IMG/VR virus record: IMGVR_UViG_3300026097_000020
Location: 1 to 64,000 of that record
DNA length: 64,000 bases
Source: a virus
Direction: 5' to 3' (one strand)
Each line of letters begins with the position of its first letter. Position 1 is the first letter of the stretch. Positions 3,816-13,156 of this stretch are shown here, one piece after another. The notes under the pieces are model-generated. The model made no database searches, was not told where the DNA came from, and saw only the letters and a list, made by a program, of their open reading frames with translations. The position numbers were made by a program, and so were the translations under genes.

Positions 3816-4196
3816 ATGAATAGTGGAAAACCTCGTGCACCTGGTCAAATCGGTGACACAAAAATTCAAGTTGTAAACGAAAACTTTTCTAATCTAGGAA
3901 CTTATGTTTGGATTAAACCAAACGGTAAAGCATTTACTGATGGAAACGGCAATGCTCTTTCTATTGAATCAATGAGAGGCGATAAGAATAAAATTAAAGA
4001 ATTGCAAGATGCCGCTAAGTATTGGGGGCAGCCCGAGGGTAGAGCAGAATTCTATTCTAATGCACGAAAAATTTCAGACGAAGAGCATAGCGAACAGGTA
4101 GACAGAATGTCTCAGGGGATGTTGCCTAACCTTAATGACCTTGGTGCTGTTATTGCCGCAAAGAAAACTTTAGAAACCTACGGAGACGAGGGGTAA
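3816..4196 (+). CDS. Conserved small protein preceding the portal
   Basis: 126 residues, soluble, no recognised domain. It has a Gly/Asn-rich segment near residues 30-50 and a charged helical second half (EEHSEQVDRMSQG). ATG 3816 is preferred over the in-frame GTG at 3810 because the promoter -10 ends 7 nt before it. The stop overlaps the portal start in a TAATG junction, which implies translational coupling with the portal. A small head assembly protein is possible from position only; no function is assigned. Confidence 0.7.
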   Translation: MNSGKPRAPGQIGDTKIQVVNENFSNLGTYVWIKPNGKAFTDGNGNALSIESMRGDKNKIKELQDAAKYWGQPEGRAEFYSNARKISDEEHSEQVDRMSQGMLPNLNDLGAVIAAKKTLETYGDEG

Positions 4197-5794
4197 TGCA
4201 GCAAGAATGGACAGTCGGTGCACAAATCGACGAAGTTGCCGATAATGAAAATGAGTTTAAAAGACAGGATCCGTTTGTTAAATCTTGGGACGATATTAAA
4301 ACCCTAGATGGTCTTGGGCAAAACTTTAAGCGTAGAGCTTCGCGTCTTGCTAAAAATGCAGAGCCTTCTGAGTCTTATTTGGATAGTGCTTTATCTACAG
4401 CATCTGGTACTGATGGGGCAAAATCTAAAGAAATTAATCCAGGAACGGTTTTTCGTAATGGCTACGGAATGTTCGACGTGATTACCCCACCTTGGAATCT
4501 TTATGAGCTGGCAAACTACTACGACACTTCTTTTGCTAATCACGCAGCAATCGATGCCAAAGTAGAAAACATCGTTGGTCTAGGATATGACCTCGAAGTT
4601 GCTAAAAGCACTATGTTGAGAATGGAGTCCAATAGTGATGCTCAAGCAGTAGAAAGAGCAAGAAATAGAATTGAAAGACTCAAGATCTCGATGCGTGAAT
4701 GGTTGGAAAACCTTAACGATGATGATTCCTTTACCAGCACTATGATGAAATTTTATACAGATGTTCAGGCAACTGGAAACGGCTACCTTGAAGTTGGCAG
4801 AACCGTTAATGGTGAGATTGGATATCTTGGTCACATCCCGGCTACCACGATGCGTGTGCGTAGACTAAAGGATGGCTACGTTCAGATTATCGGACAAAAG
4901 GTCGTATACTTTAGAAACTTTGGGGCAAAGAATGCAAACCCCATCACAACTGATGCAAGGCCAAACGAAATTATTCATTTTAAAGAATATTCTCCGCTAA
5001 ACACATTCTATGGTATTCCAGACATCATGTCTGCAATTTCGTCGGTACATGGAGATCAGTTAGCATCACAGTACAACATTGACTACTTTAGCAACAAAGC
5101 AGTACCTAGATATGTCGTAACTCTAAAAGGTGCAAAGCTTTCAGCAGATGCAGAAGATAAAATGTTTAGGTTTTTGCAGACTAATCTTAAAGGTCAGTCT
5201 CACAGAACTCTTTACATTCCTTTGCCAGGAGATAGTGACAGCAACAAGGTAGAGTTTAAGATGGAGCCCATCGAAAACGGTATCCAAGAAGCTTCATTCC
5301 GTGAGTATTCAAAACAAAACAGAGACAACGTTTTGATGGCTCACCAAGTTCCTTTATCTAAAATTGGTGGATCAGATTCTGCAAACATTGCTGCTGCACT
5401 GGCTCAGGACAGAACGTTTAAAGAGCAGGTTGCTCGACCAGCACAGAAGAGTATTGAAAAAATTCTTAACAAGATTGTTCGGGAAAAAACAGATGTTTTA
5501 GACTTTAAGTTTAACGAGCTAACTCTAACTGATGAAATTGCACAGTCTCAGATTCTAGAAAGATATGTAAAGAATCAGATCATGGTGCCAAATGAGGCTA
5601 GAGAAGTTCTTGGTTTGCCACAAAGACGGGATGGGGACAGCCCAATGGAAATGAGCTCAAGGCAAGCCGCAGATGCCAGAGCTAACTCGGCTCAGGATAG
5701 AGAGCGGGACACAGAAAGATCAAACAATCAATCTGATAGCACTGCAACAATTAATGGAAGAAATGCCCAAGGAGAAGGCAGATCTTCTGAATAG
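4196..5794 (+). CDS. Portal protein
   Basis: The 532-residue length is usual for siphovirus portals. The portal forms the dodecameric ring at the capsid vertex through which DNA is packaged and ejected. Characteristic segments are PWNLYELANYYDTS with HAAIDAKVENIVGLG near residues 98-130, the crown/wing region around YGIPDIMSAISSV (about residues 275-290), and a late region with SKIGGSDSANIAAALAQDRTF. The C-terminus is charged, Ser/Asn-rich and probably disordered. It follows its upstream neighbour by a TAATG overlap and is followed by the protease and capsid genes, the standard head order. Confidence 0.88.
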   Translation: MQQEWTVGAQIDEVADNENEFKRQDPFVKSWDDIKTLDGLGQNFKRRASRLAKNAEPSESYLDSALSTASGTDGAKSKEINPGTVFRNGYGMFDVITPPWNLYELANYYDTSFANHAAIDAKVENIVGLGYDLEVAKSTMLRMESNSDAQAVERARNRIERLKISMREWLENLNDDDSFTSTMMKFYTDVQATGNGYLEVGRTVNGEIGYLGHIPATTMRVRRLKDGYVQIIGQKVVYFRNFGAKNANPITTDARPNEIIHFKEYSPLNTFYGIPDIMSAISSVHGDQLASQYNIDYFSNKAVPRYVVTLKGAKLSADAEDKMFRFLQTNLKGQSHRTLYIPLPGDSDSNKVEFKMEPIENGIQEASFREYSKQNRDNVLMAHQVPLSKIGGSDSANIAAALAQDRTFKEQVARPAQKSIEKILNKIVREKTDVLDFKFNELTLTDEIAQSQILERYVKNQIMVPNEAREVLGLPQRRDGDSPMEMSSRQAADARANSAQDRERDTERSNNQSDSTATINGRNAQGEGRSSE

Positions 5795-5822
5795 TAACAT
5801 TTTTATAAAGTTTTCAAAAAGG

Positions 5823-5831
5823 TGCTATAAT
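5823..5831 (+). promoter_or_regulatory. Extended -10 promoter before the protease/scaffold gene
   Basis: TGC plus TATAAT (5826-5831) with 9 nt to ATG 5841. There is no good -35 at the usual distance (the region is T/A-rich) and no Shine-Dalgarno, so the transcript would be leaderless or carry about 2-3 nt of leader. It separates expression of protease, scaffold and capsid from the portal. Confidence 0.6.
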
Positions 5832-5840
5832 TAGGATAGT

Positions 5841-7178
5841 ATGACTATGTTTAAAGCACACTGGGATACGGAAGGCGACAGCGTTCGTCTTTCTATGCCA
5901 TTCAGTAAAGTTGACGAAGAGAGACGCACGGTCTCTGGTTTCGCTACCCTTGACAATGTAGATAAGCAAATGGACATTGTCACGCAAGACGCATCTGTAA
6001 AAGCTTTTGAAAAATTTCGGGGAAACATTCGTGAAATGCACCAGCCAACAGCGGTCGGCAAAATGGTCTCCTTTAAAGAGGACAAGTACTTTGATCCCGA
6101 TACCAAAAAATTCTACAGTGGTGTATACGTTTCTGCATATGTATCTAAAGGTGCTCAAAGCACTTGGGAAAAGGTTTTAGATGGAACCCTTTCTGGTTTT
6201 TCTATCGGCGGTAAAATGAACGACTGGGACGACGGCTATGATGAAAAAGCTGATTCCAAGATTCGTGTCATTAAAGATTATGATTTAGTTGAACTTTCTC
6301 TTGTAGACTCTCCTGCAAATCAGTTTGCTAGCATTCTTTCGGTAGAGAAAGTTGACGGAGTTGACGTCCTCAAAGGCGAGGGGGTTGACGTAGTTCTCGA
6401 AAATGTATTTTGGGATCAAGAAAGTGGCCTCGTAATGTTGTCAGAAAATGAGACTGAAAAAAGTCCTACATCTGGCAAAGCGATGGACAATATCGGATTC
6501 GTTGAGAAGAACGATGACGACAAACAAGATATGGTAAAGCTCTTAATTGATAGTGCTAAAGGCATTAATACAATTGAGATGAAAAAGGAGGTAAGTCCTA
6601 TGACTGATGAAACCACTAACCTCGAAGAGGTTGTAGAAAAATCAGATGAGGTCGCTCCAGAGGCAGATGCCGCAGCTGAAAGCGTTGAGGCTGCTGAACC
6701 AGCCGAAGCCGTAGAGGCTGAAGTTGAAAAGGCAGACGATGCTGAAGCAGAGGTTGAGGTTGAAAAAGCTGAAACCGCTGAGACCGAGGAAGTTGAAAAA
6801 GCTGACGAGGTTATCGAAGAAGCTGCTGAAGTATCCAAGTCTGATGACGAAGCTGTAGATGCAGTTGCCGACATCAAGGATACTATTACATCAGCCTTTA
6901 GCGATCTAGCAGAGACCGTAAAAGCACTACACGCCGAGGTCGATGCTCTAAAGAAATCAATTACTGGAGTTTCGGAAGAAGTTGCTGCTACCAAGCAGGA
7001 AGTTACCGAAGCAAAGGGACAGTTTGATGAGTTTGGAAAGCGTGTTGACGCAGTTGAGCAAGACACTGCTTTCCGCAAATCTGGCGATCTAGGCGAGATC
7101 GTGCAGGATGAACCAGAAATGGTTCAAAAATCCCTATGGGGCGGTCGTTTCCTCAAAACTGCCGACTTATTTAGATAA
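5841..7178 (+). CDS. Prohead maturation protease (XkdF-like) fused in frame to scaffold
   Basis: 445 residues in two parts. Residues about 17-170 match the XkdF-like/HK97-type head maturation serine protease: FSKVDEERRTVSGFATLDN, a candidate catalytic His67 in REMHQP and Ser121 in GFSIGG, then VELSLVDSPAN. Residues about 254-420 are very rich in Glu, Ala, Val and Lys with a predicted coiled coil, as in scaffolds. The protein ends SLWGGRFLKTADLFR, resembling a capsid-binding tail. The family role is to organise the shell and then cleave scaffold and capsid N-termini. A strong internal ribosome binding site inside this frame suggests that the scaffold is also made alone. The major capsid gene follows. 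Confidence 0.85.
   Translation: MTMFKAHWDTEGDSVRLSMPFSKVDEERRTVSGFATLDNVDKQMDIVTQDASVKAFEKFRGNIREMHQPTAVGKMVSFKEDKYFDPDTKKFYSGVYVSAYVSKGAQSTWEKVLDGTLSGFSIGGKMNDWDDGYDEKADSKIRVIKDYDLVELSLVDSPANQFASILSVEKVDGVDVLKGEGVDVVLENVFWDQESGLVMLSENETEKSPTSGKAMDNIGFVEKNDDDKQDMVKLLIDSAKGINTIEMKKEVSPMTDETTNLEEVVEKSDEVAPEADAAAESVEAAEPAEAVEAEVEKADDAEAEVEVEKAETAETEEVEKADEVIEEAAEVSKSDDEAVDAVADIKDTITSAFSDLAETVKALHAEVDALKKSITGVSEEVAATKQEVTEAKGQFDEFGKRVDAVEQDTAFRKSGDLGEIVQDEPEMVQKSLWGGRFLKTADLFR
6585..6592 (+). promoter_or_regulatory. Internal ribosome binding site for nested scaffold start
   Basis: AAGGAGGT lies inside the protease/scaffold frame, 7 nt upstream of an in-frame ATG at 6600. It is one of the strongest Shine-Dalgarno sequences in the window and would be surprising by chance in mid-gene. 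The bases encode only a Lys-Lys-Glu-Val linker. Confidence 0.75.
6600..7178 (+). CDS. Nested in-frame scaffold protein
   Basis: Starting at ATG 6600 within the protease gene and sharing its stop, this frame gives a 192-residue acidic, Ala/Glu-rich protein with a coiled coil (around FSDLAETVKALHAEVDALKK) and the same C-terminus as the long form. This is the arrangement of lambda C/Nu3, where free scaffold is made in excess over the protease fusion by internal initiation. The evidence is the AAGGAGGT at optimal spacing and the exact placement at the boundary between protease domain and scaffold region. Separate synthesis is inferred, not shown. Confidence 0.65.
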   Translation: MTDETTNLEEVVEKSDEVAPEADAAAESVEAAEPAEAVEAEVEKADDAEAEVEVEKAETAETEEVEKADEVIEEAAEVSKSDDEAVDAVADIKDTITSAFSDLAETVKALHAEVDALKKSITGVSEEVAATKQEVTEAKGQFDEFGKRVDAVEQDTAFRKSGDLGEIVQDEPEMVQKSLWGGRFLKTADLFR

Positions 7179-7201
7179 GTAAATCACTTAGGAGGTGACA
7201 A

Positions 7202-8335
7202 ATGTCGGAAGAGATCAAGAAAAATCAGCCAGGTGAAAGTGGCGAACTAGGAGGAACTACTCCTGGTAATTTCCAAGGCCAAGGTGCTTTTGCATCTGGT
7301 GGAATTGGTGGCGTTACAGACCCTGGTGCTGACACACTTGGTAACATTCCTAATGCCGAGTTCGGTCTTACTACTGGCCCAAACGCAGTTAATCCTTCGG
7401 GTGATGCAGCTAGTGGTATTCTCCGTCCCGAGCAAGCACGTCGTTTTATCGACTATGTTTGGGATGGCACTGTTCTCGCCAAGGATGGTCGCCGCGTAAC
7501 TATGCGGGCCAACACAATGGAACTAGAGAAGGTCAATGTCGGGGAGCGCGTTATTCGTGCTGCTAGCCAGGGCATTGGTGACTACACCAACACTGGTGCA
7601 ACCTTCTCAAAGGTTGAACTAACCACTAAAAAGATCCGTCTGGACTGGGAAGTTTCTGCAGAGGCACTCGAAGATAACATCGAGGGTGCAGCTCTAGAAG
7701 ATCACCTAGTTCGTTTGATGACAAATGCATTTGCAAATGACATCGAGGATCTAGCCATTAATGGTGACGGTTCTACTGGTAACTTCTTGTCCATCATGGA
7801 TGGGTTTGTTAACAGAGAAAAGACTGGTGGCGACGCCCACGAGTCTGTTGTAACTGTAACTAACGATGAGTGGACTCCAACCGTAATGCAGGACATTATT
7901 CTTGCCATGCCCCGCAAGTACCGCGCACTTAAGAACAACCTTAAGTTCTACGCTGGTACCGATGCATTCCAGGGCATTGTAAAGAACAATGGTACTCTCG
8001 CTGATGCAGTTGCCGAGGCTATTGCTGGACAGGTTCCAGGTAGCACACAGGCTAACCGTCAGAATTACCTCGATGGCGTTGGCCAGACATTTGGTGGTGC
8101 TCGCACCACTCGTGTTCTCGGTATCGACGTTCAGGAAGTTCCTTACTACCCAGATGGTTTCGTGGACCTCACATTCCCCGCAAACCGTATTTGGGGCTTC
8201 CAGCGCGACATCGTTGTAAACCGTGAGTATGTTGCAAAGAAAGACACTATTGAGTACACCGTATTCGTACGTTTCGGTATTCAGTGGGAGGAAGAAGACG
8301 CTATTGCATTTGCCGATGCAGCAGCAGACTCCTAA
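7202..8335 (+). CDS. Major capsid protein (HK97 fold)
   Basis: 377 residues, preceded by a strong AGGAGGTGA ribosome binding site. The first ~75 residues are Gly-rich and of low complexity and may be removed by the upstream protease. The body starts at LRPEQARRFIDYVWDGT and continues with RVIRAASQGIGDYT, a conserved pattern of actinophage capsid proteins, then IRLDWEVSAEALEDNIEG. Codon use is more optimised (C/G-ending codons) than in most neighbours, as expected for the most abundant virion protein. A strong terminator follows directly. Confidence 0.9.
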   Translation: MSEEIKKNQPGESGELGGTTPGNFQGQGAFASGGIGGVTDPGADTLGNIPNAEFGLTTGPNAVNPSGDAASGILRPEQARRFIDYVWDGTVLAKDGRRVTMRANTMELEKVNVGERVIRAASQGIGDYTNTGATFSKVELTTKKIRLDWEVSAEALEDNIEGAALEDHLVRLMTNAFANDIEDLAINGDGSTGNFLSIMDGFVNREKTGGDAHESVVTVTNDEWTPTVMQDIILAMPRKYRALKNNLKFYAGTDAFQGIVKNNGTLADAVAEAIAGQVPGSTQANRQNYLDGVGQTFGGARTTRVLGIDVQEVPYYPDGFVDLTFPANRIWGFQRDIVVNREYVAKKDTIEYTVFVRFGIQWEEEDAIAFADAAADS

Positions 8336-12403: not shown

Positions 12404-12430
12404 TAATTTAATATAATTTAATAGCTTAAC

Positions 12431-12458
12431 TGCCCAGGCATTTTGTCTGGGCAGTTTT
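12431..12458 (+). terminator. Terminator after the major tail gene
   Basis: TGCCCAG (12431-12437) and CTGGGCA (12447-12453) form a perfect 7-bp stem with a 9-nt loop, followed by GTTTT. The T run merges into the next promoter's extended -10, so termination and re-initiation are a few bases apart. Confidence 0.85.
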
Positions 12459-12466
12459 GCTATAAT
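12458..12466 (+). promoter_or_regulatory. Extended -10 promoter, leaderless geometry
   Basis: TGC plus TATAAT (12461-12466), then 6 nt to ATG 12473. There is no room for a ribosome binding site, so the chaperone mRNA is almost certainly leaderless. Confidence 0.7.
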
Positions 12467-12472
12467 ATATAG

Positions 12473-13156
12473 ATGGCTACTAAAATTTATGAAACTGCAA
12501 CAATACATCTAGTTGACGGAACAGAACTTTACATTATTCCCTTAAAGCTAAAATATCTTAGAGAGTTTATGGAAACCTTTGAGTTTGTCAAAAAGGCAGA
12601 AGATGACTTTGAGGCAATGACTTATCTTGCAGATTGTGCAAGAGTAGCCATGAAGCAATATTATCCATCTATCAAAACTTTAGAAGATGTGGAAGATAAT
12701 ATAGATATGCCAACAGTTTATTCTATTATAGATATTGCTGCGGGAATTAAAATAAAAAATCAAGAATCGGAAATTAAAGAGCAAGCGACTGATAGTGGAT
12801 CTACATGGGATGATCTAGATCTTGCAAAGATTGAGGCAGAAGTTTTTCTTCTTGGTATTTGGAAAGACTATGAAGATCTAGAAACTTCAATGTCTATGCC
12901 AGAAATTATATCTACCCTCGGATCTAAAAGAGATCTTGACTATGAAGAAAAAAAGTTTTTGGCAGCAATTCAGGGCGTTGATCTGGATAAAAATGGCGGC
13001 AACTCAGAACAAAATAAATGGGAAGAGATGAAGGCCAGGGTATTTAGTGGTGGACAAACCAATGATCCTAATGATATAGTATCTTATCAGGGTACTAAGG
13101 CTCAACAGAATGGCTTTGGGATAGGCCTGGGGCTTAATTATGAAAAAATTAGTTAA
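12473..13156 (+). CDS. Tail assembly chaperone, long form
   Basis: 227 residues. The N-terminal ~100 residues (HLVDGTELYIIPLKLKYLREF through IDMPTVYSIIDIAAG) are clearly paralogous to the shorter downstream gene, while residues ~105-227 are a unique acidic extension with a Gly/Asn-rich end. This mimics the G and GT pair of lambda, in which a common N-domain occurs with and without an extension, but here as two separate genes. Chaperones of this type recruit the tail tube protein to the tape measure. A heptamer A AAA AAT (12754-12760) sits at the domain boundary; a -1 slip there would stop at 12775-12777. Confidence 0.75.
   Translation: MATKIYETATIHLVDGTELYIIPLKLKYLREFMETFEFVKKAEDDFEAMTYLADCARVAMKQYYPSIKTLEDVEDNIDMPTVYSIIDIAAGIKIKNQESEIKEQATDSGSTWDDLDLAKIEAEVFLLGIWKDYEDLETSMSMPEIISTLGSKRDLDYEEKKFLAAIQGVDLDKNGGNSEQNKWEEMKARVFSGGQTNDPNDIVSYQGTKAQQNGFGIGLGLNYEKIS

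Follow-up and report, generated by a model that had tools for sequence, protein, structure and literature searches.

A predicted scaffold gene nested in frame within the S78-type prohead protease gene of a phage contig and its relatives

The protease locus and its candidate internal start

IMGVR_UViG_3300026097_000020 is a viral contig of 67.5 kb, and the stretch analyzed here, its positions 1 to 64,000, is referred to as the window. A gene at 5841-7178 has a portal gene (4196-5794) on its upstream side and a major capsid gene (7202-8335) downstream. Its product is identified as a prohead protease by a match to Peptidase_S78 (PF04586; E = 3.3e-6, 27.8 bits vs. a curated cut-off of 21) and by one to PHROG 9427, head maturation protease (E = 4.7e-116). 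H67 and S121, which we take to be the conserved catalytic His and Ser of an S78 protease, are invariant in 26 relatives. The features of the locus, all on the plus strand, are as follows (SD, Shine-Dalgarno sequence).

4196-5794, +: portal protein gene (Pfam and PHROG matches)
5826-5831, +: TATAAT -10 box, 9 nt ahead of the protease ATG; the predicted mRNA would have little or no leader
5841-7178, +: capsid maturation protease-scaffold fusion, 445 aa (Peptidase_S78 at 3e-6; PHROG 9427); start without SD, anti-SD energy -3.3
5841-6572, +: protease part, aa 1-244; a beta-rich domain with the invariant H67 and S121, then helix 226-244
6541-6579, +: conserved RNA stem-loop; outer stem 6541-6546/6574-6579, inner stem 6551-6557/6561-6567
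6585-6592, +: internal SD, AAGGAGGT
6600-6602, +: internal in-frame start ATG (M254), the same throughout the clade; Streptomyces and Rhodococcus phages have ATG or GTG
6600-7178, +: nested scaffold gene with a predicted product of 192 aa; the C-terminal part is matched in Streptomyces phages
6843-7079, +: scaffold coiled-coil helices, aa 335-374 and 379-413 (model, pLDDT about 50-66)
7116-7157, +: second stretch under synonymous constraint, coding for the conserved WGGRFL motif at the C-terminus, ahead of the major capsid gene
7190-7196, +: major capsid gene SD, which serves as a yardstick
7202-8335, +: major capsid protein (PHROG 1623, match from residue 66 onward)

Among cultured phages, the closest are Streptomyces phages of the Stanwilliamsviridae, whose protease parts are 48-56% identical to that of the window; Rhodococcus phages come next. 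The order portal, (membrane protein), protease, capsid is kept in the relatives, the window’s clade differing from the otherwise similarly ordered Stanwilliamsviridae in having no membrane-protein gene between portal and protease. The corresponding gap (5794-5841), devoid of the small membrane-protein gene of the Streptomyces phages, is AT-rich. In several relatives this gap holds an imperfect inverted repeat, a different one in each.

A preliminary description of this DNA, made from the sequence alone, had drawn attention to an SD lying 7 nt before an in-frame ATG at 6600. This arrangement is confirmed: AAGGAGGT occupies 6585-6592, the spacer 6593-6599, and the ATG is codon 254. The same description had put the signal exactly at the transition from the protease domain to an Ala/Glu-rich scaffold. 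The placement is approximately right, but “exactly” is too strong: the S78 Pfam match stops at residue 167, a segment of strands and helices then runs to about residue 244, and the disordered Ala/Glu-rich part begins at about 245. An AlphaFold model of the full-length product, of low confidence, is beta-rich to about residue 200; a helix spans 226-244, residues up to about 334 are disordered, and two long helices cover 335-413. A fold search of the PDB with this low-confidence model returned nothing significant. The region past the internal start is thus an Ala/Glu-rich linker followed by a coiled coil, directly ahead of the capsid gene. Initiation at 6600 would therefore remove the protease part and retain the disordered linker, the coiled coil and the WGGRFL motif, a scaffold-like combination. 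From position, composition and analogy, we infer a scaffold role for this C-terminal part. On inspection, the capsid protein’s own N-terminus is glycine-rich, with no obvious coiled coil resembling a delta domain.

AAGGAGGT followed by seven nucleotides and ATG is found at one place in the 64-kb window; the number expected from shuffles is 0.06. When synonymous codons were shuffled within the gene, 4% of the shuffles yielded an internal site equally strong (window genome only). The support from this single genome that the site exceeds chance is moderate, and relatives were collected for that reason. An out-of-frame gene served by the same SD was considered and rejected, as the +1 ATG at 6607 opens only 9 codons.

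Conservation and nucleotide-level selection at the internal site

The comparison covered 63 environmental relatives and 15 named Streptomyces and Rhodococcus phages. In every distinct homologue having the region, the strongest in-frame SD and start inside the gene is the one at the protease/scaffold boundary. The anti-SD energy of this site lies between about -9 and -16 kcal/mol across the homologues, with weaker sites (-8.6 and -8.7) in two Rhodococcus phages. In all of the homologues compared (54/54), the main start has a weaker SD than the internal one. Mean anti-SD energies are -13.3 (internal site), -13.0 (major capsid gene) and -1.3 (protease start). The internal SD matches the capsid gene's in strength and greatly exceeds the protease start's; these signals fit a prediction of free scaffold at about the level of the capsid protein and in clear excess over the protease, an excess that the preliminary description had also proposed. 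Codon usage seemed to shift toward that of the capsid gene at the internal start in 42/42 cases; after amino-acid centring this falls to 29/42 with a small effect, and it is weak support for higher expression of the scaffold part.

The codons that carry the signal differ among the groups. The environmental clade has AAG GAG GTA/GTT/GAT/GAA ahead of ATG, the Streptomyces phages GGA GGT ahead of GTG or ATG, and most Rhodococcus phages GGA GGT/GAT ahead of ATG. Thus, both the codon phase of the SD and the residues that it encodes (K-E-V vs. G-G) vary, and protein-level selection therefore does not account for the SD; its differing phases, together with a start that is either ATG or GTG, point to selection on the nucleotides. 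Within the clade, M254 is invariant and the neighboring M247 is variable. Codon 254 is ATG in 30/30 clade members, and E250 is GAG in all 30, though GAA is the commoner codon across the gene as a whole. For the predicted internal start, this conservation is the decisive evidence. Hence the preliminary description’s proposed check, conservation of the internal ribosome binding site in relatives, was borne out across three phage groups. Its remark that annotation easily misses such a second start also proved apt: 14 of the 15 named phages are annotated (one record is not), and all 14 carry a single CDS at this place.

Synonymous change, computed over 30 non-redundant clade members, is suppressed from about 6540 to 6602, i.e., from about 60 nt upstream up to the internal start. 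The ratio of observed to expected change falls as low as 0.06 (permutation p = 0.0015 for the minimum), is about 0.2 across the codons of the SD, and has recovered to 1 by a few codons past the internal ATG. For the clade’s portal and capsid genes, the ratio is never below 0.46. The Streptomyces group has a separate constrained patch over its own SD and GTG/start. Further short patches occur in the scaffold half (6642-6674 and 6885-6911); there are none in the protease half.

These results bear on the alternative that scaffold exists only as the C-terminal domain of a protease fusion, in the style of phage P2 gpO, with the SD and ATG being incidental to a Lys-Glu-Val...Met coding stretch. There is precedent for protease and scaffold in one gene (PMC8508860), and for individual clade members about 2-25% of synonymous shuffles yield an equally strong site. 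We nevertheless consider a fusion-only arrangement improbable, because the boundary holds the best internal site in all relatives despite differing SD phases and residues, and because the strong synonymous constraint stops at the internal start. That the SD-like stretch, situated at a domain boundary, serves only as an elongation pause allowing the protease domain to fold before scaffold synthesis is scarcely credible, as a pause would need no start codon and all relatives have one at the correct spacing, in some of them GTG, a valine codon.

The gene’s strongest synonymous constraint lies over a predicted RNA stem-loop at 6541-6579. In the window’s clade, this element consists of two stacked helices and ends 5 nt ahead of the internal SD. 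Pairing is kept in 99.4% of cells, compared with 31-52% for slid controls, and the window’s own sequence folds with z = -3.0. The stems show compensatory changes, with one pair alternating among G-C, A-U and G-U. On a tree made from the other columns, its two positions change 6 and 7 times; the changes have the same direction in about 3/3 independent supported comparisons, which are too few for significance alone. Constraint upstream at the position of the stem-loop is not evident in the Streptomyces group. The element could keep the SD accessible, impede ribosomes arriving from upstream, or serve as a mark for RNA processing.

The constrained stretch might instead house an internal promoter, from which a separate, shorter scaffold mRNA would be made, as is the case for UL26.5 within UL26 of HSV-1 (PMC2949831). 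The window alone has TACAAT at 6569-6574. However, no -10 hexamer is conserved ahead of the internal start (3/29 clade members, 0/15 named phages). Further, the stretch 6540-6579 varies by 3 nt in its spacing among relatives and folds as a covarying stem-loop, and the element is not repeated elsewhere in the 64-kb window. An internal promoter is accordingly about as improbable as a fusion-only product, though one read by a phage-specific sigma factor is conceivable.

The second constrained patch, 7116-7157 (TCCCTATGGGGCGGTCGTTTCCTC), shows strong constraint at the very end of the gene, and the Streptomyces phages are constrained at the corresponding place. It might be a candidate for coupling capsid translation to scaffold translation. 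Base pairing between the C-terminal TTCCTC and the capsid SD was rejected: it appears in one predicted fold of the window and is missing both from a second fold, of a slightly different stretch, and from the relatives that were folded.

The outer start

The outer start of the protease gene has the features of leaderless initiation, namely a TAnnnT -10 box about 10 nt upstream and no SD. Leaderless genes, for which this signature has been published, account for roughly one in five genes of Actinobacteria (PMC3160421), and mycobacteria translate leaderless mRNAs robustly (PMC4633059). A strict -10 box is found 5-11 nt ahead of the protease start in 29/29 non-redundant clade members, against a background of 0.9%. 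Among the named phages, TAnnnT stands 6, 9 or 10 nt ahead of the start in 15/15, four of the starts having been corrected, and a -35-like hexamer lies 17-18 nt farther upstream in most. The corrections moved the starts of Trina, Grayson, LukeCage and Tomas downstream by 2-4 codons. As annotated, these starts (2971, 2977, 2995 and 2995, positions in the compared sequences) overlap or abut the -10 box, and the true starts are probably those 2-4 codons downstream. Given the -10 box 9 nt upstream and the absence of an SD, the mRNA for the protease-scaffold fusion probably has no leader or almost none. The 9-nt gap between box and ATG predicts a leader of 0-4 nt, and the mRNA may have about 3 nt rather than none.

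A search for a consensus hairpin upstream of the protease -10 box found dyads in several relatives that could not be aligned, and the candidate was dropped.

The same -10 signal without an SD is present at the heads of other transcription units in the window and in phage Wakanda. In the window, the gene starts at 144, 3816, 12473, 59643 and 60284 have a TATAAT-like box 6-7 nt upstream and no SD; they are probable leaderless transcripts heading transcription units. At 12430-12475, a G+C-rich, terminator-like hairpin is followed by TTTTGC and then by TATAAT and the ATG at 12473, such that terminator, promoter and leaderless start all fall within about 45 nt. The ORF listed from 8405 has an SD-like GGAGG just ahead of 8423 and TATAAT just ahead of 8405; its true start is probably 8423.

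A proposed nested gene and its relation to known systems

Taken together, the signals make it very likely that an in-frame scaffold gene of the lambda C/Nu3 or Mu type is nested in an S78 protease gene, with two modes of initiation. In this proposal, the outer ATG at 5841 would yield the protease-scaffold fusion from an mRNA beginning at, or within a few bases of, that ATG. Ribosomes would start independently at the ATG at 6600 by means of its strong SD, giving a free scaffold of 192 residues whose C-terminus is common with the fusion. Free scaffold would co-assemble with the major capsid protein, which is encoded by the following gene behind an SD of equal strength. The common C-terminal part would carry a minority of protease fusions into the prohead, from which the protease would later clear the scaffold. 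One gene thus probably sets the ratio of two assembly proteins.

A more specific proposal, which we advance tentatively and would place somewhat short of even, is that the protease-to-scaffold ratio is set by the leaderless protease start acting together with an SD-led scaffold start guarded by the upstream stem-loop. If so, the condition of the ribosomes and initiation factors would influence the ratio; the stem-loop may in addition designate a processing site or protect the internal start from ribosomes arriving from upstream. The relatives compared belong to a large group of actinobacterial phages and have no annotated scaffold proteins. The analysis locates a candidate scaffold with a predicted N-terminus across the environmental clade and two groups of cultured phages.

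The preliminary description had likened the arrangement to lambda C/Nu3; the probably leaderless outer start and the stem-loop did not figure in it. The likeness holds for the layout and does not extend to homology, the present protease being S78-type. Lambda C belongs to another peptidase family than S78. Among the Pfam matches of the window’s protein, there is none to a lambda-C-type family, only S78 types (PF04586, with PF14550 just under the cut-off). As described in a paper cited in PMC8508860, lambda likewise has its scaffold gene in the same frame as the 3' part of its protease gene, the two products sharing a C-terminus, and the pair is flanked by the portal and capsid genes. Here, unlike lambda, the outer start is apparently leaderless, and a stem-loop precedes the internal SD in the window’s clade.

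The protease genes of Mu and of Mu-like Pseudomonas phages (PaMx73) have an SD-led, in-frame internal start at the same relative position (PMC4378225), although we detected no sequence relation to them. For the Mu-like phages, the proposal concerned a single phage group, whereas the present site has been tested across divergent relatives. In herpesviruses, the UL26/UL26.5 pair is also an in-frame nested protease and scaffold, the latter in large excess (PMC2949831). UL26.5 has its own promoter, whereas the signals here indicate a second translation start on one mRNA. HK97 gp4 is, like the present protease, of the S78 type and adjoins the capsid gene, but the HK97 scaffold is the N-terminal delta domain of gp5 (PMC8508860, PMC10275583); in the window, the coiled coil is C-terminal in the protease gene. 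Homologous counterparts are the proteases of the Stanwilliamsviridae and of Rhodococcus phages of the Trina/Grayson type (PHROG 9427). These share a homologous gene, the gene order, the internal SD and start, and TAnnnT before the outer start, and they differ from the window in the codon phase of the SD (GGA GGT) and in often using GTG.

Among the open-access papers searched, we found no report of a nested scaffold for this phage group, and the named records carry a single annotated CDS; we therefore place the arrangement as a variation on a known layout. It would extend the nested scaffold layout of lambda and Mu to S78-type proteases, and it suggests that leaderless and SD-led initiation can be combined within one gene to set assembly stoichiometry. 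We thus rate the locus as a known nested layout built on an S78 protease, distinguished by its apparently leaderless outer start and by a clade-specific RNA element before the inner one.
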